A model generated the notes under the pieces. The model had not been told where the DNA came from and ran no database searches. It saw nothing but the letters and a program-made list of their open reading frames with translations. Of a stretch of 39,112 nt of DNA, positions 389-32,982 are shown in pieces; the stretch's first letter is position 1; every line of letters starts with the position of its first letter. Origin of the DNA: a virus; the IMG/VR virus record IMGVR_UViG_3300034694_000314, positions 1 to 39,112 of that record; one strand, written 5' to 3'. The position numbers were made by a program, and so were the translations under genes.

Positions 389-1009
389 TTAATAATGACC
401 AAATCCCCAATATTTTTCACGACACCACCAGCATGTTTTACATGGCTTGGGCTCAATTAACGATTCACAACTAATGGTTATTTCTGCAAGACTTGCAAGA
501 TCGTACTGGGCGTACAGTGAGGCTACTGCTTTCTTATCAATATCATTTAGTGGTTGATACGACATAAACTCTTTTCCAAAGTATTTCGTCATATCCTTTT
601 TCCAGCCATTTTTTACATCTCTGCGTTTATCTCTGCTATCATCTGTCATCAAGTCTTCAATGCCAATTGGATTTAGTGTCATGCCCACAAATCTACCATC
701 TGCGTTGTATTCTCTCACCGTATCATCAAAATCGGATTGCTTTCTTGCTTGTGAGGCAATTCGATCTGTGTAATTTATAAATTTATGATCTACGATACGA
801 TTATCAAATCTTGCAGTAAACCATGATACAATGTCAATCACATATGGTTTGTTATAATGTGCCATATGATTATGTGTTGCTGTTACTAATACTAAATCAC
901 TATTAGGCAAATATGTACCTATTAAGAATAATACCAATGCACTATCTAATCCGCCACTTAAATATACTATATAAGTCTTATTGTCTGGTATATCTAGCAT
1001 CTTTTCCAT
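389..1009 (-). CDS. QueC-like PP-loop ATP pyrophosphatase (paralogue A)
   Basis: The 206-aa protein carries the PP-loop signature SGGLDS at residues 18-23. This motif binds ATP in N-type ATP pyrophosphatases, which adenylate a carboxyl or similar group. Its C-terminus has four cysteines spaced C181-x8-C190-x2-C193-x2-C196 within a CKTCWWC sequence, like the zinc site of QueC (7-cyano-7-deazaguanine synthase). A second protein at 27062-27676 has the same spacing. No QueD, QueE or FolE partner is visible here, so a deazaguanine role is only a possibility; asparagine-synthetase-like or thiolation chemistry would also fit the PP-loop. The start (1009 or the ATG at 1000) overlaps the end of the 374-aa gene. 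Confidence is high for the fold and low for the substrate. Confidence 0.8.
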   Translation of the reverse strand: MEKMLDIPDNKTYIVYLSGGLDSALVLFLIGTYLPNSDLVLVTATHNHMAHYNKPYVIDIVSWFTARFDNRIVDHKFINYTDRIASQARKQSDFDDTVREYNADGRFVGMTLNPIGIEDLMTDDSRDKRRDVKNGWKKDMTKYFGKEFMSYQPLNDIDKKAVASLYAQYDLASLAEITISCESLIEPKPCKTCWWCREKYWGFGHY

Positions 1010-2118
1010 AGTAAATCCCTACTGTCATATGATGCCTCTTCAATTGCTTGCTCAACAGATATACCATTAAATGGATTTGTACAATGATCACTTCCATAGA
1101 CACTAGTTTCTGGATTATGATCTGACAACGCATTCATAAAGTTAAGTGCACCCGTATGACTCTGAGCAGATGTTTTTAATATGTTCGCTGGTAAACGCTT
1201 CAATGCGCCATTCCACCAAAATGCGCCATTTCCTTTCATATCCAAATTGGCGAATGTTTTATATAACTTGTCATTATCCATTAGATTACAATGATTATAT
1301 GTGTGCTTACATGCTGTGTACTGCTCCCAATGAGCAATCCAACCATCATATCCAAACGTATCTACTACATGTTGCCAACATTTACGCGCTGCGGGATGAT
1401 GACTGTGTAACCTATATTTGCCATTGAATATCTCAAGTAATGGAAATTTAACATATACATGATCCATCCAATCATAAAAATTATGACCATCCCAATTCTC
1501 AATCGTATATCTACGTACTGCTAAACTCATAGGACTTACATCAATGTGGTGTATCGCTGTGTTAGTTGTAAATTCTGATTGTCGTAATACATAATTTATA
1601 TAAAATCCACTACTTACGGTCATTGCCCAATCTAATGATGTATGCGACTTAATCGGATTAGGTATTTCATTATGGATAATATACGAAATATTACTATTCT
1701 GTACCAATGTAGACATTGCACTATTATGTGTCATGGCAAACGAATCATCAGTTGACGCATCAACTACAGGAAGTAATCTGTCTAGAATGATATGTTCTGT
1801 ACCTGTGCCATTTGCCCGTAAGACTTTAATGTAGTCATTATCAAATGTTATTTCTTTTGCGGTACTTTTTTCCACTTGTGACCTGATTGCCGATTCCCAG
1901 TAAGAAAATTCAAATATAACGCCAGGAGTTAGTACTAGTGCATATTCATAGTTACTTAAATTGACTGTGTCAATATTATCTGTCTTGAAAAATGCATAAG
2001 CAGAGTCGCCAATTCTATCAGCCATACAATAATCAAAATTCAATTGTGTGTAATTCTTTACGACTAGATATTTCCAATCAGTGTTTTGTGGGTCATCTAG
2101 TAATATAACTGCTTTCAT
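994..2118 (-). CDS. Hypothetical protein, 374 aa, in metabolic cassette
   Basis: I do not recognise a family. The protein is soluble, aromatic-rich and has no signal peptide or membrane segment. Segments such as VLTPGVIFEFSYW and RRYTIENWDGHNFYDWMDH look like a folded enzyme or binding protein rather than a structural repeat protein. It starts by a TAATG overlap with the sulfotransferase-like gene and its end overlaps the PP-loop gene start by 16 nt, so it is embedded in the same translational unit. A role alongside those enzymes is inferred from position only. Confidence 0.8.
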   Translation of the reverse strand: MKAVILLDDPQNTDWKYLVVKNYTQLNFDYCMADRIGDSAYAFFKTDNIDTVNLSNYEYALVLTPGVIFEFSYWESAIRSQVEKSTAKEITFDNDYIKVLRANGTGTEHIILDRLLPVVDASTDDSFAMTHNSAMSTLVQNSNISYIIHNEIPNPIKSHTSLDWAMTVSSGFYINYVLRQSEFTTNTAIHHIDVSPMSLAVRRYTIENWDGHNFYDWMDHVYVKFPLLEIFNGKYRLHSHHPAARKCWQHVVDTFGYDGWIAHWEQYTACKHTYNHCNLMDNDKLYKTFANLDMKGNGAFWWNGALKRLPANILKTSAQSHTGALNFMNALSDHNPETSVYGSDHCTNPFNGISVEQAIEEASYDSRDLLWKRC

Positions 2119-2846
2119 TATAAATCCTTATTGATATCTTCAAAATTATAATATGCCACTAATGTATCATATACTAATTGGCGGTGCGGAGTCTTATGTG
2201 CGAACATATACCCCTCAATACTACGAATACATCTATGTACTTTGTCATTATCTTCAAAATTATTTATATCCCAATATTCATCCCAATGTCGCTCTGTTGC
2301 TGCATGTAATCGTAAACGCTTATTGAATACCCATTCTCTTGCATCTCTGCATTCAACATCAATTAGATCCCTAGCAGTTTCATCATTCTTATAATGATCT
2401 GCATAATTTGGATATGTGATATCAAATCCCCCACCACCAAACCATCCATTATAACAACTTTGTATGGGACGCATCACAACAATGATTTTACTCGTTGGGA
2501 AATTTTCAATAATCCAATCAAGATTGTTAACCATTTGGTGACATTTAACAATACGATATGAATCAGACTGTTCATCTGTCCAAGGCAGTGCAATTTCATC
2601 AAGTACATCTTGCTTTGTCAATGTGTGCAATTCATGCCATTTCTGACCAAATTCAAATCCAGGTCCAAAATAACTACCCAAATGCTGTGCACTGTTAAAT
2701 TTAACTGGATGCGTATGTGTGCGTGCATCTGATCTATCTGTTATATTAACTTTCATCATAGGAGTCATAGATAACATGTTACTTACTGCACTCCACTTAC
2801 TCCCAGGCGCGCCCGTGAAGAATATTAATTTACTTTCATCTATCAT
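2118..2846 (-). CDS. P-loop sulfotransferase-like protein
   Basis: The 242-aa protein begins with a phosphosulfate-binding-loop-like segment, FFTGAPGSKWSAVSNML (about residues 9-25). In the middle it has KIIVVMRPIQSCYNGWF, which resembles the second PAPS-binding strand and helix of sulfotransferases (R-x-P-x-x-S-x-x-x-W). Known family members move sulfate from PAPS to a hydroxyl or amine, but many viral members have no assigned substrate. It lies between the ANL enzyme and the 374-aa protein. The resemblance is motif-level; a kinase-like P-loop protein is the main alternative. Confidence 0.65.
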   Translation of the reverse strand: MIDESKLIFFTGAPGSKWSAVSNMLSMTPMMKVNITDRSDARTHTHPVKFNSAQHLGSYFGPGFEFGQKWHELHTLTKQDVLDEIALPWTDEQSDSYRIVKCHQMVNNLDWIIENFPTSKIIVVMRPIQSCYNGWFGGGGFDITYPNYADHYKNDETARDLIDVECRDAREWVFNKRLRLHAATERHWDEYWDINNFEDNDKVHRCIRSIEGYMFAHKTPHRQLVYDTLVAYYNFEDINKDL

Positions 2847-2870
2847 ATAATTTTCTCTTTTTAATAACGA

Positions 2871-3548
2871 TTACTTTCTTTTTATAAATGAATATGTGTC
2901 ATTCTCAAATGTCACAAGATCACCCGTAGCAAACCAACCAGAATAAATGCAAGTTGGTCCTTTGACATATAATTGACCATCAATGATTTTTGTTTCACAC
3001 TGTGTAGTATCACCTAGTATGTTTTTTGTAAAGTCAATTGTATCGTTTTTATTATATACTTTGTTAATTGCATTGGGTCCTATTTCACTCATTCCCCAAT
3101 TAGCAATGACTGTCGCTCCCTTATCAATGAATGCTTGTATTTCATTTCCATCAATTCTATCACTACCCATTGCAACAATCTTGTCAGATAAATCGCATGT
3201 AGCAAATGCCTTAGTCTGCATAACTGCTTGACACATTTTTGGTGGTAAAAATGTATGTGTGTAATCTTGAAATTCAGTTAAGAATTGATATGGATTGAAA
3301 GTTGTAATTTTAATATCACATCCCAATGTATATGCTGGCAATGTTTGTAATAACAATCCACCAGCATGATCCATCTTAGTACAAGTGTATATTCTGCTTT
3401 TAGCGGTAATCATTTGTACTTCTATTGCAACTTTGTTACATGCTTCTAGGTTGCCGGGAGATCGTAGTATATGTTTCTTTTCACCAGTGGTGCCAGACGA
3501 TAAAATCTCAACACCATAATCTAACATTTCTCTATAATTCAGTTGCAT
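2871..3548 (-). CDS. Minimal ANL-family adenylate-forming enzyme (AMP-binding core only)
   Basis: The 225-aa protein has the ANL signature motifs in order. These are the phosphate-binding loop SSGTTGEKK (17-25), an H-x-G-G segment (61-64), NWGMSEIG (150-157, equivalent of YGxTE) and ATGDLV (207-212), ending with YSFIKRK at the usual hinge. Family members (acyl-CoA synthetases, NRPS A domains, luciferase) adenylate a carboxylate and are normally about 500-600 aa. Here most of the N-terminal subdomain and the whole C-terminal lid (about 110 aa) that performs thioesterification are absent. The gene is open throughout and sits between other intact genes, so it looks like a compact enzyme rather than debris. 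It overlaps the start region of the PLP enzyme's end by 17 nt. The product may be an acyl-adenylate passed to a neighbour. Confidence 0.8.
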   Translation of the reverse strand: MQLNYREMLDYGVEILSSGTTGEKKHILRSPGNLEACNKVAIEVQMITAKSRIYTCTKMDHAGGLLLQTLPAYTLGCDIKITTFNPYQFLTEFQDYTHTFLPPKMCQAVMQTKAFATCDLSDKIVAMGSDRIDGNEIQAFIDKGATVIANWGMSEIGPNAINKVYNKNDTIDFTKNILGDTTQCETKIIDGQLYVKGPTCIYSGWFATGDLVTFENDTYSFIKRK

Positions 3549-4368
3549 ATTCTTCTTTTTTTACAATGTATTCATTCATAAGTATTTCAGTAATGGGACC
3601 AGTGTTTGTTGTTGCTGTCACTCCGCCACTTGAACTTGCGATAAAAACTTCATCTGCTGAGTTGTATTCTTCTACTGTGATGGGCTTTCTTACAAATGGT
3701 ATGTTATGTTCAGTCGCCATTGCTTCTACTACTTTCATAGTAATACCTTTAAGTACATTCTTATCTGCGGTATATATTGTGCCATCTTTTACGATACCAA
3801 CATTAAACCCAGGACCTTCGGTAACATGTCCGTCTACATCTACTAATACAGTACTGTCATATCCTTCTGGTCGTGTACGCTGACTCATGGTTAGATCAAG
3901 CCATGCCATATTTTTAAATTCCTGTCCATAGTATTCATCGCTGACTCGCTTGGTATCTTGATCTAGATATAATGACACAATAGGTTTATTGCCAATTGGA
4001 TAACTTGGTTTAATATACATAGCGAAGTTGACAGGGCAATTTTCAATATCTCTTGGATTACCGCTTGCAGGATATCCACGCCAAACAAGAAACCAAACAA
4101 ATGCATTGTCTATGTTGTTTTTTGCTTTTAGTTCTTTGACAATTGATAACATGTCAATATTTGGTAAGACAAGTCCGTATCTCGCTGCGCTATTTTGAAA
4201 TCGCTGTAAGTGACTTTCATAACAAAATGCTTTTCCGTTGTATACGGGCATAACATCGTATGTCGCATCACAATGGATAAATCCAAAATCTAATATGCTT
4301 GGTCCTACTTCTCGTAGTGGTTTGTATTCGCCATTCTTATATGCAATCGTATCTAATACGTTAATCAT
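3532..4368 (-). CDS. Fold-type IV PLP aminotransferase/lyase (BCAT/D-AAT/ADC-lyase class)
   Basis: The protein is 278 aa from the preferred ATG at 4368, which follows AAGG at good spacing and overlaps the upstream gene's stop. An ATG ten codons earlier has no ribosome site. Class IV hallmarks are present in order: DFGFIHCDATYDVM (27-40), HLQRFQNSAARYG (53-65), EFKNMAWLDL with candidate Schiff-base lysine K152, VTEGPGFNVGIV with E184 facing the PLP nitrogen, LKGIT (206-210) and ADEVFIASSSGGV. Branched-chain aminotransferase, D-amino-acid aminotransferase and aminodeoxychorismate lyase share this fold, and I cannot separate them by eye. It is next to an adenylating enzyme, which hints at an amino- or keto-acid substrate for both. 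Confidence 0.85.
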   Translation of the reverse strand: MINVLDTIAYKNGEYKPLREVGPSILDFGFIHCDATYDVMPVYNGKAFCYESHLQRFQNSAARYGLVLPNIDMLSIVKELKAKNNIDNAFVWFLVWRGYPASGNPRDIENCPVNFAMYIKPSYPIGNKPIVSLYLDQDTKRVSDEYYGQEFKNMAWLDLTMSQRTRPEGYDSTVLVDVDGHVTEGPGFNVGIVKDGTIYTADKNVLKGITMKVVEAMATEHNIPFVRKPITVEEYNSADEVFIASSSGGVTATTNTGPITEILMNEYIVKKEEYATEL

Positions 4369-4618
4369 CAAAGTGTACCTTGTTAAGTTGGGGATCATCT
4401 GGTAACTTTTGCTTGAGTTGTTTCAAACGAGCGATTCGCCATTCTAATAACTTAAAGTCAAGTACCCACGGTAAAAATGCATGTATTAAACTTCCAATAC
4501 ATACTAATAATAAAAAGAAAAATTCTGCCATTGCAATACCAAAATGCCAGAAATATCCGGCATCAGGTCTTGCTGCTTTTTTTGTTGCTTCTGCTAAATG
4601 CTTACGGTTAAACCACAT
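4361..4618 (-). CDS. Small membrane protein, DUF6356-like
   Basis: The 85-aa protein has a central hydrophobic stretch (about residues 25-53) in the pattern GYFWHFGIAMAEF...LIHAFLPWVLDF, followed by a basic amphipathic tail. The spacing of HF, IHA and LP matches my memory of DUF6356, a short membrane-associated family found in bacteria and marine phages with no known function. The start follows AAGGAACATAT. Its stop overlaps the ATG of the PLP gene. It is probably a membrane anchor or modulator; function is unknown. Confidence 0.7.
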   Translation of the reverse strand: MWFNRKHLAEATKKAARPDAGYFWHFGIAMAEFFFLLLVCIGSLIHAFLPWVLDFKLLEWRIARLKQLKQKLPDDPQLNKVHFDD

Positions 4619-5162
4619 ATATGTTCCTTAATTTGTTTCTACGCCTAGTGTATTCATTTATATTTAGTTTCCATACAGTCTGCGCAGTATAATATAATTC
4701 CATATCACAATGATTATCCAATATTCCCTGCTTTGCTAGTAATCCCATCAGTCTATGATTTCTGGCTGCTTTGCCGTTTGAATGTTCGTGTGTTATATTG
4801 GTTGTAATGTATAATTCATCTGACGGACACCATTCAATAAATTTAGGAATAAATTCGCGCTGTGTAATACTATTCCAATCACCCTTGCCTAATCCCTTAA
4901 ACGTGTCAGTGTGAGGCAATTCACATCCTCTGAATAGTATACGCCAAGCATTTTCACCTACTTCTGGCAATGGGTGACAACCAGCAACGGCTATGATGTT
5001 ATCATCTTTAATGGCACAAAAATACTTACCACCAAAATCATTGCACCATTCATATTTCATTGCTTTTAAACTTGCGTTATTAATGTATCCTAACTCTTCT
5101 GCGTGTTTGCAAAATATTTCTAACTTAGGTAATAACTCTTGTGTGATTGGTTGGATTTTCAT
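4608..5162 (-). CDS. GNAT-like N-acetyltransferase
   Basis: The 184-aa protein has the general layout of a GNAT fold: an N-terminal helix pair, then the beta-strand pair KYFCAIKDDNIIAVAGCHPL (residues about 46-65), and a later strand ELYITTNITHEHSNGKAARNHRL-type region where acetyl-CoA would bind. Phage GNAT proteins of this size usually lack a known substrate. It overlaps both neighbours (ATGA with the upstream gene), which places it in the cassette of aminotransferase, ANL and sulfotransferase genes. The acetyl-CoA loop is degenerate, so activity is not certain. Confidence 0.6.
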   Translation of the reverse strand: MKIQPITQELLPKLEIFCKHAEELGYINNASLKAMKYEWCNDFGGKYFCAIKDDNIIAVAGCHPLPEVGENAWRILFRGCELPHTDTFKGLGKGDWNSITQREFIPKFIEWCPSDELYITTNITHEHSNGKAARNHRLMGLLAKQGILDNHCDMELYYTAQTVWKLNINEYTRRRNKLRNIYVV

Positions 5163-5794
5163 TGTTTTAGAAACTCTATTACTTTATTATAATTATCTTC
5201 ATTAAATCCAAGACTGAACTGTTCACATAATAATTTAAAATTATCTATATCAAGTAAATCGTCAATCGTATCTATTACAAAATCATTTGAATTTACATTC
5301 GTTTCGTAGTTTTCTAATGTATTTATTAACATTGGTTCTATGTCTTCTGGTGAATACAAATCACTAATAAGATGGTTTGTTTTACCCACCCTAAAGAACC
5401 ATGTTGTCTTAAAAAATCTATCTACATCTTTGTTTAGTACAACCAAGTGCTTGCCTTTAAAGTAATCTCGCGTTTGATCTAAATCACTGTGTGACACATA
5501 CATTACATACTCACCATCACCGCACCTATCAAATGATAGTTCGGGTCGTTCTGGTAATCCGCTGCGTCTTGCATAATCTAATACAGGAGCAATTGTACTG
5601 TTATCGGCAAATCTCCTATCAAAATGAAATCCATTAAGTTCTGCATTTAATATTCCACTGCATGGCTCCCAAGGATGGTTGCCATTACCTTCGTGATCAA
5701 ACCATAATACATTATCACAACTTGCAAGTAGTCTACCAATTTGATGTCCTTTTGAACCCATGTTAACATTAATTACAATAACAGGATTATTCAT
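5159..5794 (-). CDS. P-loop sulfotransferase-like protein (211 aa)
   Basis: The N-terminus reads VIVINVNMGSKGHQIGRLL, a strand followed by a glycine-rich loop and helix, as in sulfotransferase-type P-loops. The C-terminus ends with FVIDTIDDLLDIDNFKLLCE, resembling the D-L/L-C segment near the end of the 266-aa protein at 28343-29143. The start codon has no clear ribosome site. It sits just after a 13-bp tandem duplication that moved it away from the stop of the upstream gene. Assignment is by pattern only. Confidence 0.5.
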   Translation of the reverse strand: MNNPVIVINVNMGSKGHQIGRLLASCDNVLWFDHEGNGNHPWEPCSGILNAELNGFHFDRRFADNSTIAPVLDYARRSGLPERPELSFDRCGDGEYVMYVSHSDLDQTRDYFKGKHLVVLNKDVDRFFKTTWFFRVGKTNHLISDLYSPEDIEPMLINTLENYETNVNSNDFVIDTIDDLLDIDNFKLLCEQFSLGFNEDNYNKVIEFLKQ

Positions 5795-5814
5795 TACAAT
5801 GATTCATTACAATG
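5789..5814. repeat. 13-bp tandem duplication across a stop/start junction
   Basis: The unit ATTCATTACAATG occurs at 5789-5801 and again at 5802-5814. Each copy carries TAATG on the minus strand. One copy supplies the stop of the glycine-zipper gene and the other the ATG of the 211-aa gene. Confidence 0.95.
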
Positions 5815-6322
5815 AGAGTGATACTTGAACAGATACACTATCGCCCACATTGAAGAATTTATTTGTTTTGAATGATAACTGCATATTGTTATATTCGGCA
5901 ATAACCATATTTCCATCATACTGACGAATAACTTCTGTAGTGTAATTAGTGTTACATTGACGTTGGTTCTGATAACCAATAATCTGCTTCTTAGAAGACT
6001 TCTTATTGGCAATATCTGCACCAGCAATAGCACCCAGTAATGTCGCTGCATCTTTGCCTTTGCCACCACCTACGCTGTTACCTATCAGCCCTCCAAAAAT
6101 CGCGCCTGCGAGGACATCGGCAGTACTTGCATTATTGGTGTCTCCATAGATCGGTACATTAACATTTGTACATACTTCTACAGGTGTTTGCACACTAATG
6201 TTACTATACACTTTCTGCACTGATTTCACCACTGCGGTCTGCATGTATGTCTCTGCTGATGCCATTCCTGTGGTTAATAGTAATACACCACCTAATACGA
6301 TTGCTCGTTTATAACTTTTCAT
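5807..6322 (-). CDS. Exported glycine-zipper (17-kDa-antigen-like) protein
   Basis: The 171-aa protein has a clear signal peptide: a basic start (MKSYKR), a hydrophobic core (AIVLGGVLLLTTGM) and an ASA cleavage site near residue 23. No lipobox cysteine is present, so it should be a secreted or periplasmic protein rather than a lipoprotein. Residues about 69-105 form a glycine zipper (DVLAGAIFGGLIGNSVGGG...LLGAIAGADIAN), typical of membrane-inserting Rick_17kDa-type domains. Two cysteines beyond the signal (CTN and QCN) could form a disulfide. Such genes are known in marine phages; roles in envelope remodelling or lysis timing are possible but unproven. Its ATG overlaps the TAA of the 59-aa gene. 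Confidence 0.75.
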   Translation of the reverse strand: MKSYKRAIVLGGVLLLTTGMASAETYMQTAVVKSVQKVYSNISVQTPVEVCTNVNVPIYGDTNNASTADVLAGAIFGGLIGNSVGGGKGKDAATLLGAIAGADIANKKSSKKQIIGYQNQRQCNTNYTTEVIRQYDGNMVIAEYNNMQLSFKTNKFFNVGDSVSVQVSLSL

Positions 6323-15744: not shown

Positions 15745-17022
15745 TTAATTAAGTTGTAATATAGTATTAGTGTAAGTGGTAACATAATCATGCACATCAA
15801 GTCGTCTTGAGTTCTTCCAATATTTTGTCATATCTCGTAATTGTGTTAATTTAAGTTGTTTTGATTCAATATTATTGTTTAATTCATTATATTGTGACTC
15901 TAACATCGCAAATACGTCTTTGACTGTATTAATAAATTTTCCATTATATTGTTCTACCGATAATTTAAATTGTGCAAACGTATCCGCATCAATAAGTCCA
16001 GGTTCCATTCCCGATGGTGACGAAGCTAATACTACTTCTATGCCATTCGCATTTATGTGAGGTAAATGCTCTTCTGCATATTTGAATATATCTATTATTT
16101 TATGTACATTCAATACATGCATAACTGTACTAATTTCTAATGATATTGTTTGAATGTAGTTCTCGTTGTCAACTATTGCATCATGTATAGTGATATGGTT
16201 GTTCATTAGTTTAGGGAATTTAACAGGATATCTAATATATTCCGTTAATTCATCTACCGCATCAATACTCAATACCATTATAAATTTCTTAAATTGTCCC
16301 ATTAGTGGTAGAATAGGAATTGAACTTACTGTACCATTGGTAACTACTACGACTTGTATATTTTTTGAATAATCTGATTCAACTAAAAATTCCAACCAAG
16401 ACTTGAATCCTGGCAATAGCATTGGTTCACCACCTGTTGTTTTAAATCTACGAATATCTCCTGCTACTAATTTTAGTTGTTCTAATTCATGATCATCAAA
16501 ATCAATTAATACAGTTTCTGGAGTAAGCCATATATCTTTAAGTAACGCTGGGATTTCATAATCATGTCGTTCTTGGGAAATTATACTTGAAGATGATGCA
16601 GAACACATTACGCACCCCATATTACACTTATTGCCAAACTTGATGTCTAATGTCTTTAATTGAACAGTACCTTTCTGTACAATACTGTTAAATAATTCAG
16701 GATTATTTGAACGTACTTGATTAGAAGATTCTAATCTCATTGATGTACCAGTTATTGATTCAAATGATATGCATTTTGTACATGCGTTGATTGGTGCGCC
16801 ACTTAGTGCTTTTTCACGTATTTCACCAAATGTACGATGATTAAAGAAAATATCTTTATGTGATTGATTTTGTTTTTCTGCTGACGATACGACTATCTCA
16901 CTATTACAACATAACAGGACGTTGTTAGCAGTGTCATTGCAAATTTCAATAAATGGCTTAACACAAAATGATTCCCCATAGAGTACATTAAACTCTTCAA
17001 GACTTAGATTGTCTTGTTTCAT
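15745..17022 (-). CDS. Radical SAM protein, twitch/SPASM-like
   Basis: The 425-aa protein carries the [4Fe-4S]-binding motif C133-x3-C137-x2-C140 in KCNMGCVMC and the TGGEP motif that positions S-adenosylmethionine. Additional cysteines at 20, 28, 38, 39, 81 and 84 in the N-terminal part (SFCVKPFIEIC, LLCCN, CTKC) suggest a second metal site placed before the core, as in phage twitch-type radical SAM proteins I recall. Substrate is unknown; peptide or protein modification is the usual role of such domains. AAGGACTAACTA precedes the ATG. It sits inside the late block, so it may modify a virion protein. Confidence 0.88.
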   Translation of the reverse strand: MKQDNLSLEEFNVLYGESFCVKPFIEICNDTANNVLLCCNSEIVVSSAEKQNQSHKDIFFNHRTFGEIREKALSGAPINACTKCISFESITGTSMRLESSNQVRSNNPELFNSIVQKGTVQLKTLDIKFGNKCNMGCVMCSASSSSIISQERHDYEIPALLKDIWLTPETVLIDFDDHELEQLKLVAGDIRRFKTTGGEPMLLPGFKSWLEFLVESDYSKNIQVVVVTNGTVSSIPILPLMGQFKKFIMVLSIDAVDELTEYIRYPVKFPKLMNNHITIHDAIVDNENYIQTISLEISTVMHVLNVHKIIDIFKYAEEHLPHINANGIEVVLASSPSGMEPGLIDADTFAQFKLSVEQYNGKFINTVKDVFAMLESQYNELNNNIESKQLKLTQLRDMTKYWKNSRRLDVHDYVTTYTNTILQLN

Positions 17023-26506: not shown

Positions 26507-27065
26507 CAATCTTGTTTAATTGCATCACTACTACCATCGCGTATGAGTGAGCATGACTTTTCTTAAAGTAATAAGAATCATCTTCTGGTTTTACCCATAT
26601 ATTGTTCATCACAGTATCCCAATCCTTTCCAATCAAATAACTCTTTGCTGGACGAATCATTGCCAACACTGCTGCCAATTGACCAACACTACTGGGCTTC
26701 ATTTGTTGAACAATACTAAAATGGGAATGTATATGAAAACATTTCTCAACAATTTCCCTATGTTCTAATAGATCCCACATAGGTTCCATATCAATCAATT
26801 CATCAAGTTCTGCTTTGTTACTAATATCATTATATGCCGATACATTCAACAAATCCATTTTAAAGTAACCCATCTTCTCGGCTTCTTTGTGATCTATTGT
26901 CGCTAATCCGTTATATGGATTAGTAGGAATCTCATGAAAATATACACCAGTGTTGTGCTTTTTTTCAATATGTTCACGCTTTATCATCGCAGGAGTATTT
27001 TTAATAAGAGCAAGTAATTTATCTCTATTTGCGATGTCTATATCAATATCTGTATTAACTATCAT
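26487..27065 (-). CDS. Miniature DnaE-like (C-family DNA polymerase core) protein
   Basis: The 192-aa protein lines up by eye with the palm and fingers of bacterial DNA polymerase III alpha. TDIDIDIANRDKLLALI (5-21) matches the PDxDxDF...RD motif that holds two catalytic aspartates. MGYFKMDLLNV (65-75, D71) matches the VKFDFLGL motif with the third. VLAMIRPAK (133-141) matches LVALFRPGP, and YYFKKSHAHSYAMVV (165-179) matches YGFNKSHSAAYAL. The PHP, thumb and beta-binding parts are absent (usual length about 1160 aa). From memory, marine T4-like phages carry such split DnaE-like pieces, with a GRGS-containing partner elsewhere; that partner is not in this window. It follows the PP-loop gene by an ATGA overlap. 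Activity is unproven. Confidence 0.7.
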   Translation of the reverse strand: MIVNTDIDIDIANRDKLLALIKNTPAMIKREHIEKKHNTGVYFHEIPTNPYNGLATIDHKEAEKMGYFKMDLLNVSAYNDISNKAELDELIDMEPMWDLLEHREIVEKCFHIHSHFSIVQQMKPSSVGQLAAVLAMIRPAKSYLIGKDWDTVMNNIWVKPEDDSYYFKKSHAHSYAMVVVMQLNKIVKDSFS

Positions 27066-27676
27066 ACTAATCTACCAAATGCCCATTTACGTTCCGAACA
27101 CCACCAACAATTATCGCAGTGAGTCCCATCTCTATTTTTAGTACAACTAAGAGTCAACGGGAATAATGTATCGGTAATTCCCAAGTAGTCATACATTTCT
27201 GCAACTTTACTTTTATCAATATTATAGAAGGGTATGTAGATTGCACCATCACGCCTCCATACAGGTCGCACCTCGGACGATAGACGATCTGCTTCACCGT
27301 TTAACTCACTATTGAACGTTTTTACTACTTCCTCTGACGGATTAGATGTAATTCCTAAGTAGTATAGTTTAATATTTTCATCAGCAACAAGTGATTCATT
27401 CACCGCCTTTCTACCGTCAAATTCTCGCATATATGTTATACTATGCTCTACGCTATAATTATCAGTTAATTCTACTACTTTGTTAACCACCTGTGTTGCA
27501 GGGATTGTATTGCAATTATCAATACCAATGTTACCACTAGTCACTGCAATGACTTTATGTGGTGAATACTTCATTAATATATAAAGTAATAATGCACTAT
27601 CTGCGCCACCACTAACATTGATTGCAATTTCTCCATCTGGGATGTGGATATCCACACCACATAAATTAATATCCAT
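27062..27676 (-). CDS. QueC-like PP-loop ATP pyrophosphatase (paralogue B)
   Basis: The protein is 204 aa from the ATG at 27676. That ATG overlaps the TAA of the zinc-finger gene (TAATG) and follows AGGA; a longer frame back to 27715 would run inside that gene. The PP-loop is SGGADS at 22-27. The C-terminal cysteines are C178-x8-C187-x2-C190-x2-C193 in CDNCWWC, followed by SERKWAFGR, the same arrangement as in the protein at 389-1009 (CREKYWGFG). The substrate is unknown. It is coupled to the DnaE-like gene, which suggests a nucleic-acid context. Confidence 0.82.
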   Translation of the reverse strand: MDINLCGVDIHIPDGEIAINVSGGADSALLLYILMKYSPHKVIAVTSGNIGIDNCNTIPATQVVNKVVELTDNYSVEHSITYMREFDGRKAVNESLVADENIKLYYLGITSNPSEEVVKTFNSELNGEADRLSSEVRPVWRRDGAIYIPFYNIDKSKVAEMYDYLGITDTLFPLTLSCTKNRDGTHCDNCWWCSERKWAFGRLV

Positions 27677-28368
27677 TATCCTATACTCGCTTGCTTCAAA
27701 ATAGTTTCCACCCATTGTAAATCTTTAACTTCATTCTTACGCTTCAATCGTATCTGCCAATATTGAGGATCAATATAATCCACAATCATTTCAATCTGCT
27801 TGTTATTCAACATGTCCAATAAACTCTGTGCATCATTACTTGCATAGATAACCCACGGACTAATTCTACCAGAACATATATGAAATACCGCTAGACTCGG
27901 TGCTACTGTTTTGAAATAGGTATTCCAATCATTCTCTCTATCTTCTGCCCAATCTTGCATTGACAATATTGTACGCTCAACTGCCCTGTCAACACTTTCA
28001 ACTTTCAATCTCTCTTTTACCCAACCGCTAAACTTTGCATCATGTGTCCACTGATCTAGTTTTACTTGATTCTTTAACAACCATGTAGTATAACTAGTAA
28101 CATCATCTATCTTAACTTCAATGCAATATTTACCATACTTTATGAAGGCAGCATAATACGAACTTTTTGCAAATTCCGTATAAGATTTTTCTTTCTTTGA
28201 ATTTGTGCCAATACGATAGAACAACTGATATGCACGATATCCTAATTGAACATCTTTGTCATTCTCTTGCATATGTCGCTTCTTCTGCACACACATATGC
28301 ACAATAAGCGTATTTTCACGCTTAAAGTCTTTATTACAGTATTCACACTTGTACGATATTTTCTGCAT
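27676..28368 (-). CDS. Zinc-finger phage protein, 230 aa
   Basis: The N-terminus YKCEYCNKDFKRENTLIVHM followed by C is a C2HC/C2H2-like finger. The body (KSYTEFAKSSYYAAFIKYGK, ESVDRAVERTILSMQDWAED, ISPWVIYAS, IDPQYWQIRLKR) matches, from memory, a conserved protein of marine T4-like phages. It probably binds nucleic acid. It is TAATG-coupled to the PP-loop gene and overlaps the 266-aa gene. Confidence 0.75.
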   Translation of the reverse strand: MQKISYKCEYCNKDFKRENTLIVHMCVQKKRHMQENDKDVQLGYRAYQLFYRIGTNSKKEKSYTEFAKSSYYAAFIKYGKYCIEVKIDDVTSYTTWLLKNQVKLDQWTHDAKFSGWVKERLKVESVDRAVERTILSMQDWAEDRENDWNTYFKTVAPSLAVFHICSGRISPWVIYASNDAQSLLDMLNNKQIEMIVDYIDPQYWQIRLKRKNEVKDLQWVETILKQASIG

Positions 28369-32306: not shown

Positions 32307-32335
32307 ATTATAGCATCAAACTACAACAATGTCAA
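32307..32335 (-). promoter_or_regulatory. Sigma-70-type early promoter
   Basis: Minus strand TTGACA (32335-32330), 17-nt spacer, TATAAT (32312-32307). It drives uvsW with a leader of about 20 nt that carries GGAGA. Confidence 0.88.
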
Positions 32336-32982
32336 ATGATATTGTTGCTTCTCCATATATTAATAAAGAATTTCATTGTATCAATATCAATCACAGGATT
32401 AATACTGAATATATCTTCTGCCCAATCGCCAATACGATTCATTGTTTTTGTAGTGTCAGTTATGAATAATTCATATGGGTCAATCACTAATACATTTTGA
32501 TCTTCTAATACATGCATCTGCTTATCAACTCGTTCATTCATATCAGCAAATGTAGGACGTGGGGCAATGCCTAAATTTAGTTTCTTGTTTCGAATATTTT
32601 TAAAATATTCATGACTTTCTGATGTAAGTGATCGTAACACTATTAGACATGATTCATTCCATATGTCGCACTTATCATTTACAAACTTTTTAATTAATTC
32701 ATCATCCCATTTCGTATCAGGATGAAAATAAAACATGTGATCACGACTAATATTGATTTGATCAGGGTGGAAATGAAACTGTGTATGATCTATGCCCGCT
32801 TCACCATTCCATTCATCAATCACATGAAATGGTGTACTTTGACCATCTACCATTCTCCATCTATTATTTGAGTTCACAAAAACTGACGTTGGTACATACA
32901 ATTCATTTTGACCCAAGACCCAGGCAAGGAATTCACCTCCTAATCCTGGGTCATATACAACAGTCAATAACCTATTATACAT
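32332..32982 (-). CDS. P-loop sulfotransferase-like protein, 216 aa
   Basis: The N-terminus LLTVVYDPGLGGEFLAWVLG is a strand, glycine-rich loop and helix as in sulfotransferase-type P-loops. A later CLIVLRSLTSESHEYF could hold the second nucleotide-binding contact, and VLVIDPYELF resembles the C-terminal element of the other such proteins here. Substrate is unknown. It overlaps the end of the AAA gene by 8 nt and ends just where the uvsW promoter begins. Confidence 0.55.
   Translation of the reverse strand: MYNRLLTVVYDPGLGGEFLAWVLGQNELYVPTSVFVNSNNRWRMVDGQSTPFHVIDEWNGEAGIDHTQFHFHPDQINISRDHMFYFHPDTKWDDELIKKFVNDKCDIWNESCLIVLRSLTSESHEYFKNIRNKKLNLGIAPRPTFADMNERVDKQMHVLEDQNVLVIDPYELFITDTTKTMNRIGDWAEDIFSINPVIDIDTMKFFINIWRSNNII

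Follow-up and report, generated by a model that had tools for sequence, protein, structure and literature searches.

Background

In most ANL enzymes, a superfamily that includes the o-succinylbenzoate-CoA ligase MenE, oxalyl-CoA synthetase, FAAL, DltA and AlmE, adenylation is driven by a lysine of the C-terminal domain. Among PP-loop proteins, the QueC superfamily includes QatC and the Cap9 protein of type IV CBASS (cyclic oligonucleotide-based antiphage signaling system); Cap9 couples a deazaguanine to proteins (PMC13329287, PMC11996544). Marine T4-like phages carry cargo regions (PMC3037559), and their known cargo includes PrnA/VirX1-type halogenases (Gkotsi et al. 2019, as cited in PMC10452541), carbamoyltransferases and lipopolysaccharide (LPS) gene clusters. 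Here we describe a cassette of eight genes, at positions 389-5794 of IMG/VR virus record IMGVR_UViG_3300034694_000314, that joins a core-only ANL protein and a QueC-type PP-loop protein in a phage genome of this kind. The record, a fragment of 39,112 bases with T4-like phage genes, is referred to below as the window. The cassette is phage-borne biosynthetic cargo of a known kind; its three-gene core, encoding a GNAT-like protein, a DUF6356-like membrane protein and the ANL protein, is new relative to the literature searched.

Results

Linkage of the cassette genes

Eight open reading frames (ORFs), all starting with ATG, occupy the minus strand of this region (Table 1), in agreement with the overlapping or abutting genes listed there by the first-pass annotation. 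In transcription order they encode a sulfotransferase-like protein (STA), the GNAT-like protein, the DUF6356-like protein, a class IV aminotransferase (AT4), the ANL protein, a second sulfotransferase-like protein (STB), a 374-aa protein and the PP-loop protein. The spacing is -4, -11, -38, -17, +24, -1 and -16 bp: a 24-bp gap separates ANL from STB, and the remaining junctions overlap by 1 to 38 bp.

Relatives in viral loci were collected for AT4 (38), the 374-aa protein (11), the GNAT-like protein (55) and the short ANL protein, or mini-ANL (136 by alignment scan, 80 of them kept). The mini-ANL scan provides the fairest test of linkage because it is blind to the other cassette genes. After dereplication at 90% identity, and with at least 7 kb of upstream sequence required, it left 35 loci, among them the window, L176 and L051, which were brought in from other scans. 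A GNAT-like gene lies within about 7 kb of mini-ANL in all 35. In 33 loci it is a separate gene, always on the ANL strand, and the count is completed by the copies in L188 and L259, which are fused behind an STA domain (fusions in L188 (413 aa)/L043 and in L259 (425 aa)). The DUF6356-like gene is present in 28 of these loci, AT4 in 20, a 2-oxoglutarate (2OG)-oxygenase-like gene in 18, STA or its k30 homologs in 17, the TctA permease in 13, STB in 12, the PP-loop gene in 10 and the 374-aa protein gene in 8. Five loci (L208, L218, L250, L261 and L002) keep the order ANL, k30, STB, 374, PP-loop, with a few extra genes between at most, and the order GNAT-DUF6356-ANL-sulfotransferase-like-374-PP-loop recurs in several distant contigs. 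Rather than being scattered, the genes that had first been grouped by their content alone are thus linked across divergent marine viral contigs. The eight genes form a real cassette, beyond chance co-occurrence.

Codon changes relative to the sister contig L013, and likewise to L133, are mainly synonymous. Against L013, dN/dS is 0.04-0.08 for the STA, GNAT and aminotransferase genes and 0.38, from merely 8 changes, for DUF6356; against L133, it is 0.10-0.14 for GNAT, the aminotransferase and ANL. Purifying selection acts on the cassette genes. Immediately upstream of them, positions 5807-6322 (minus strand) encode a glycine-zipper, outer-membrane-like protein (Rick_17kDa_Anti, 1.3e-6), and L013 has the same gene.

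A stable core and exchangeable modules

Rank correlations of protein distances are highest within three genes (GNAT-ANL 0.59, DUF6356-ANL 0.59, DUF6356-GNAT 0.54); with ANL, the values fall to 0.22 for AT4, 0.25 for the sulfotransferase-like proteins taken as ST, 0.26 for STB, 0.17 for the PP-loop protein and 0.06 for TctA. These correlations are taken over related sequences and differing sets of loci, and are not significance tests. Because the GNAT, DUF6356 and ANL distances track each other best and the inserted blocks vary, these three genes appear, from sequence comparison, to be the stable core, with the remaining genes as exchangeable supplier or tailoring modules. AT4, which is missing from 15 of the 35 loci, is therefore inessential to the core.

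In many loci, a block of variable content is inserted between AT4 and ANL. It may include two small proteins, 2OG/Fe-oxygenase-like by eye (HxD...H motifs), a methyltransferase, a B12-type radical SAM (S-adenosylmethionine) protein, a second radical SAM protein and a GMP-reductase-like protein (IMPDH profile, 4.5e-60; its top isolate matches are annotated as GMP reductase). The alternative to the GMP-reductase-type insert is a Trp_halogenase-family protein, found within the cassette at L207:7765-8838 and L022:9348-10715; the latter is merely ~31% identical to cyanophage halogenases. TctA (7e-86) is accompanied by an unannotated partner of ~350 aa, c31 (for example, L028:13720-16295 and L207:11204-13676). 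Accessory genes of these types (radical SAM, methyltransferase, GMP-reductase-like, Trp_halogenase, TctA permease) are typical of tailored small-molecule pathways. Elsewhere in the window, amid apparent virion genes, positions 15745-17022 (minus strand) encode a 425-aa protein with a radical-SAM-like cysteine motif, CNMGCVMC, relatives of which recur near the cassettes of other loci.

The encoded proteins

The ANL protein retains the ATP-site region only, with the SSGTTGxxK P-loop, the A4 histidine, NWGM(S/T)E and the A7 T-x-D. Among the 41 aligned mini-ANL members, A3 is kept in 40, and A5 and A7 in all. The N-domain core fold and motifs A3, A4, A5 and A7 are shared with the superfamily members named above; unlike those enzymes, however, the cassette protein is free-standing, 222-258 aa long and tied to a GNAT-like gene, and every member lacks the entire C-terminal domain together with part of the N-domain. 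An A10-like motif, which would hold the lysine of the C-terminal lid, occurs in 0 of the 41. Since all members stop at the hinge, the truncation is old and shared, rather than damage in the window, and the "minimal ANL" of the first-pass annotation turns out to be a family-wide property.

The AT4 start is most likely at 4368 and not at 4398, given the AAGG upstream and the majority of the family beginning there. The fold-type IV motifs KN(M/F)xW, with the catalytic lysine, TEGPGFN and SSSGG are present in 21 of 21 members and are shared with (R)-selective amine, D-amino acid and branched-chain transaminases. By sequence profile, the closest solved proteins are the (R)-selective amine transaminases 6fte, 8zm7 and 4chi, which have a glutamate where AT4 has the tryptophan following AFV. 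The nearest bacterial proteins (L052 onward) are ~35% identical to AT4.

All 14 PP-loop members, which belong to the QueC superfamily (PF06508), have the SGGxDS ATP loop, the zinc cysteines and PxxxxxK, as do Cap9 and QatC; the exact C(x)8CxxCxxC is found in the window protein and 7 others. Cap9 (9nto, 7.3e-8) is the nearest solved chain, followed by QueC (3bl5, 1.1e-6). In contrast to Cap9 and QatC, the cassette protein lacks the 7-deazaguanine signature motifs YxQ..E, VPxRN and YPDC (PMC13329287): YxQ(x)5E occurs in 1 of the 14 members, and VPxRN and YPDC in none. The gene also lies in a phage cassette instead of a host defense locus, and CD-NTase or QatA/B/D neighbors were not noticed beside it. 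The window encodes a second QueC-type PP-loop protein at 27062-27715 (minus strand; Pfam QueC, 3.4e-9), with SGGADS and zinc cysteines and 23% identity to the cassette copy, surrounded by unknown genes between primase-like and helicase-like genes.

The remaining assignments are more tentative. The Pfam GNAT profile matches the window protein weakly and 9 of 43 family members (best 0.028), a profile comparison with the PDB GNAT 3t9y gives 0.002-0.005, and the CoA pyrophosphate loop has the conserved G-L/M without Q/RxxGxG. The DUF6356-like protein scores 20.2 bits against a PF19883 cut-off of 24.4, and is therefore named DUF6356-like only; it has one strong hydrophobic stretch (19-residue hydropathy 2.33 at residue 27). 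Sulfotransfer_3 is matched by 11 of 18 STB members (best 2.5e-5; window member 0.0054, below the cut-off), in which a TGAPGSKWS-type loop is conserved. STA is a homolog of the k30 proteins, the genes of which come after ANL in other loci, and a sulfotransferase profile matches 1 of 19 STA/k30 members (0.011). A profile search of PDB returned no match for STA or STB, and Pfam returned nothing for the window STA or the 374-aa protein. Outside the cassette, a P-loop protein at 32332-32982 (minus strand) is sulfotransferase-like by eye, without a Pfam match.

The model of the 374-aa protein has two Rossmann-like domains. Residues 1-136 may be GT-A/nucleotidyltransferase-like (KdsB 2y6p, Z 8.4), and residues 145-372 resemble a class I methyltransferase-like Rossmann domain (6ulo, Z 11.1; 3rod, Z 8.5; Foldseek 7e-4 to NNMT). 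The Z values are modest, no catalytic motif was confirmed, and the glycine-rich SAM motif is replaced by VSSGFxIN. Profile matches of this protein to BolA and caspase in PDB (E 0.34 and 0.98) were dismissed as chance.

Table 1. Genes of the cassette in the window, in transcription order (aa, amino acids; pLDDT, model confidence)
Feature	Position	Strand	Evidence
STA, putative sulfotransferase-like P-loop protein	5159..5794	-	k30 homology, GNAT fusions; invariant G13, G16, H17, R21
GNAT-like protein, member of invariant core	4608..5162	-	Pfam 0.057; PDB GNAT 3t9y; near ANL in 35/35 loci
DUF6356-like small membrane protein, core member	4361..4618	-	Pfam 6.5e-4, sub-cut-off; hydropathy; 28/35 loci
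AT4, class IV pyridoxal-phosphate (PLP) aminotransferase, 278 aa	3532..4368	-	Pfam 1.4e-35; 6fte 1.5e-40; motifs 21/21
Core-only ANL (AMP-binding), 225 aa, without C-terminal domain	2871..3548	-	AMP-binding 3.2e-11, limited to profile positions 169-357; AlphaFold mean pLDDT 94.6; VIA-align Z 22.2 to 5ie2, 222/225 residues
STB, putative sulfotransferase-like P-loop protein (TGAPGSKWSA)	2118..2846	-	Sulfotransfer_3, 11/18 family members
374-aa two-domain protein	994..2118	-	Model pLDDT 85.3; KdsB 2y6p, 6ulo, 3rod matches
QueC superfamily PP-loop protein, zinc motif C(x)8CxxCxxC	389..1009	-	Pfam QueC 2.5e-6; Cap9 9nto, QueC 3bl5

Occurrence

A T4-type portal scored above the cut-off in 12 of 27 records searched. 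Protein searches of 50,697 isolate phage records did not find the GNAT, 374 or PP-loop genes or divergent ANL/GNAT members; the ANL and aminotransferase matches in isolates are weak and generic, and the GNAT-DUF6356-ANL core is in none of the isolate genomes searched, which sets it apart from the known cargo of marine T4-like phages. AT4 has 497 bacterial relatives, and among the best 80 of these, linked genes are found in L051 only (PBDY01000027.1), binned as a gammaproteobacterial metagenome-assembled genome. This contig carries the cassette and an IscA-like gene together with a T4 portal gene; therefore, it is probably a misbinned phage contig, and a bacterial origin of the linked set was rejected. 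When 385 genomes from the class to which a SAR116 genome belongs were searched for the GNAT core, nothing was found at 1e-8, a weak negative since the search had no positive control. No description of the cassette was found in the open-access literature searched.

Discussion

The first-pass annotation had suggested that activation, amination and group-transfer chemistry come together in this cassette. For AT4 and the ANL core this is strongly supported, for the QueC-type PP-loop protein well, and for the sulfotransferase and GNAT labels weakly. A plausible functional reading, which we favor tentatively and at somewhat less than even confidence, is that the eight genes constitute a single phage-borne biosynthetic and conjugation cassette, in which a carboxylate is adenylated and, close to the membrane, coupled to an amine to give a product that is then tailored. 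Where present, AT4 would convert a carbonyl precursor to an amine or a D-/(R)-amino acid. The ANL core would bind ATP and turn the carboxylate into an acyl-adenylate, and the GNAT-like protein, which the DUF6356-like protein would keep at the inner membrane, may receive the activated acyl group and form an amide. The QueC-type PP-loop enzyme could perform a second ATP-dependent ligation of carboxylate to amine, STA and STB could add sulfate, and the 374-aa protein might contribute methyl groups or sugars. Most likely, the product would end up on the virion or on the envelope of the host and not on DNA.

Several observations weigh against this reading. Its main difficulty is that the ANL core, the putative adenylating component, lacks the lid domain with its lysine; a search of short ORFs around the cassettes for the acyl carrier protein motif GxDS found none. 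The GNAT identification, judged from profiles and a partly conserved CoA loop, is weak, and so are the sulfotransferase labels, that of STA even more than that of STB. The absence of AT4 from 15 loci also counts here, and the membrane protein is the sole pointer specific to the envelope.

A small molecule that the phage makes for release, such as a siderophore-like, signaling or antibacterial compound, is a rather unlikely product. Such a diffusible metabolite would agree with the TctA-c31 pair and with the halogenase-like and radical SAM tailoring enzymes, and the variable modules suggest varying products. However, TctA is absent where the GMP-reductase module is present, the window cassette has no transporter, and in addition to the missing carrier-protein motif, nonribosomal peptide synthetases, polyketide synthases and NIS synthetases are not among the families identified. 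Protein modification, which the kinship with Cap9 and QatC could indicate, is harder to credit. In this scenario, the PP-loop and ANL proteins would attach a small carboxylate to a phage or host protein, either at its N-terminus or at a lysine. The target might be an adjacent receptor-binding protein, and in 14 of the 35 loci a gene with the receptor-binding domain Mtd_N, or a relative of such a gene, is at most 9.5 kb away. On the other hand, no Mtd_N-type fiber gene was seen beside the window cassette, the PP-loop gene is limited to 10 loci, and the Cap9 substrate motifs are absent.

DNA hypermodification pathways use PLP enzymes and GNATs, and thymidylate-synthase family enzymes are normally needed for hypermodification of the thymine type. 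The cassette might thus build a group and attach it to a phage DNA base, in the manner known from phages that have 7-deazaguanine or amino- or acetylaminomethyl-uracil. The PLP enzyme, GNAT-like and QueC-type proteins would fit, as would the GMP-reductase-like and radical SAM genes of relatives and the nrdA/nrdB and glutaredoxin-like genes of the neighborhood. We consider this improbable, slightly more so than protein modification: PF00303 is absent from 16 of 24 records, which may be fragments but include the four of 145-169 kb (G002-G005), and the QueC signature motifs are lacking, and DNA modification is disfavored for these two reasons. PF00303 is present in the other 8 records, in one case on a separate contig of the bacterial bin that holds L051. 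QueD-family PTPS proteins are found in 3 of 18 records only, and the core includes a membrane protein. Finally, cargo regions are known from marine T4-like phages (PMC3037559) and the accessory modules vary by locus, as they would in a loose collection of unrelated auxiliary genes in a hypervariable region. This explanation is very hard to reconcile with the GNAT-ANL linkage in 35 of 35 loci, the shared strand, the kept order, the co-inheritance and the gene fusions, and we regard it as highly improbable.

Conclusions

Returning to a synthesis and conjugation cassette, a bolder version, which we consider speculative and unlikely as it stands, is an undescribed viral conjugation system, in which a lid-less ANL protein delivers its acyl-adenylate straight to a membrane-located partner of the GNAT fold, with neither CoA nor a carrier protein involved. 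Modules would be swapped to vary the attached group, altering, for example, the surface of the infected cell or the virion. Although marine T4-like phages rank among the most abundant of viruses, the isolate collection searched lacks the cassette. Should the proposed chemistry be right, these phages carry a modular machine for synthesis and attachment, the variable modules of which resemble natural-product pathways. The cassette would then offer a direct test of adenylation by lid-less ANL proteins, as well as a source of new tailoring enzymes.

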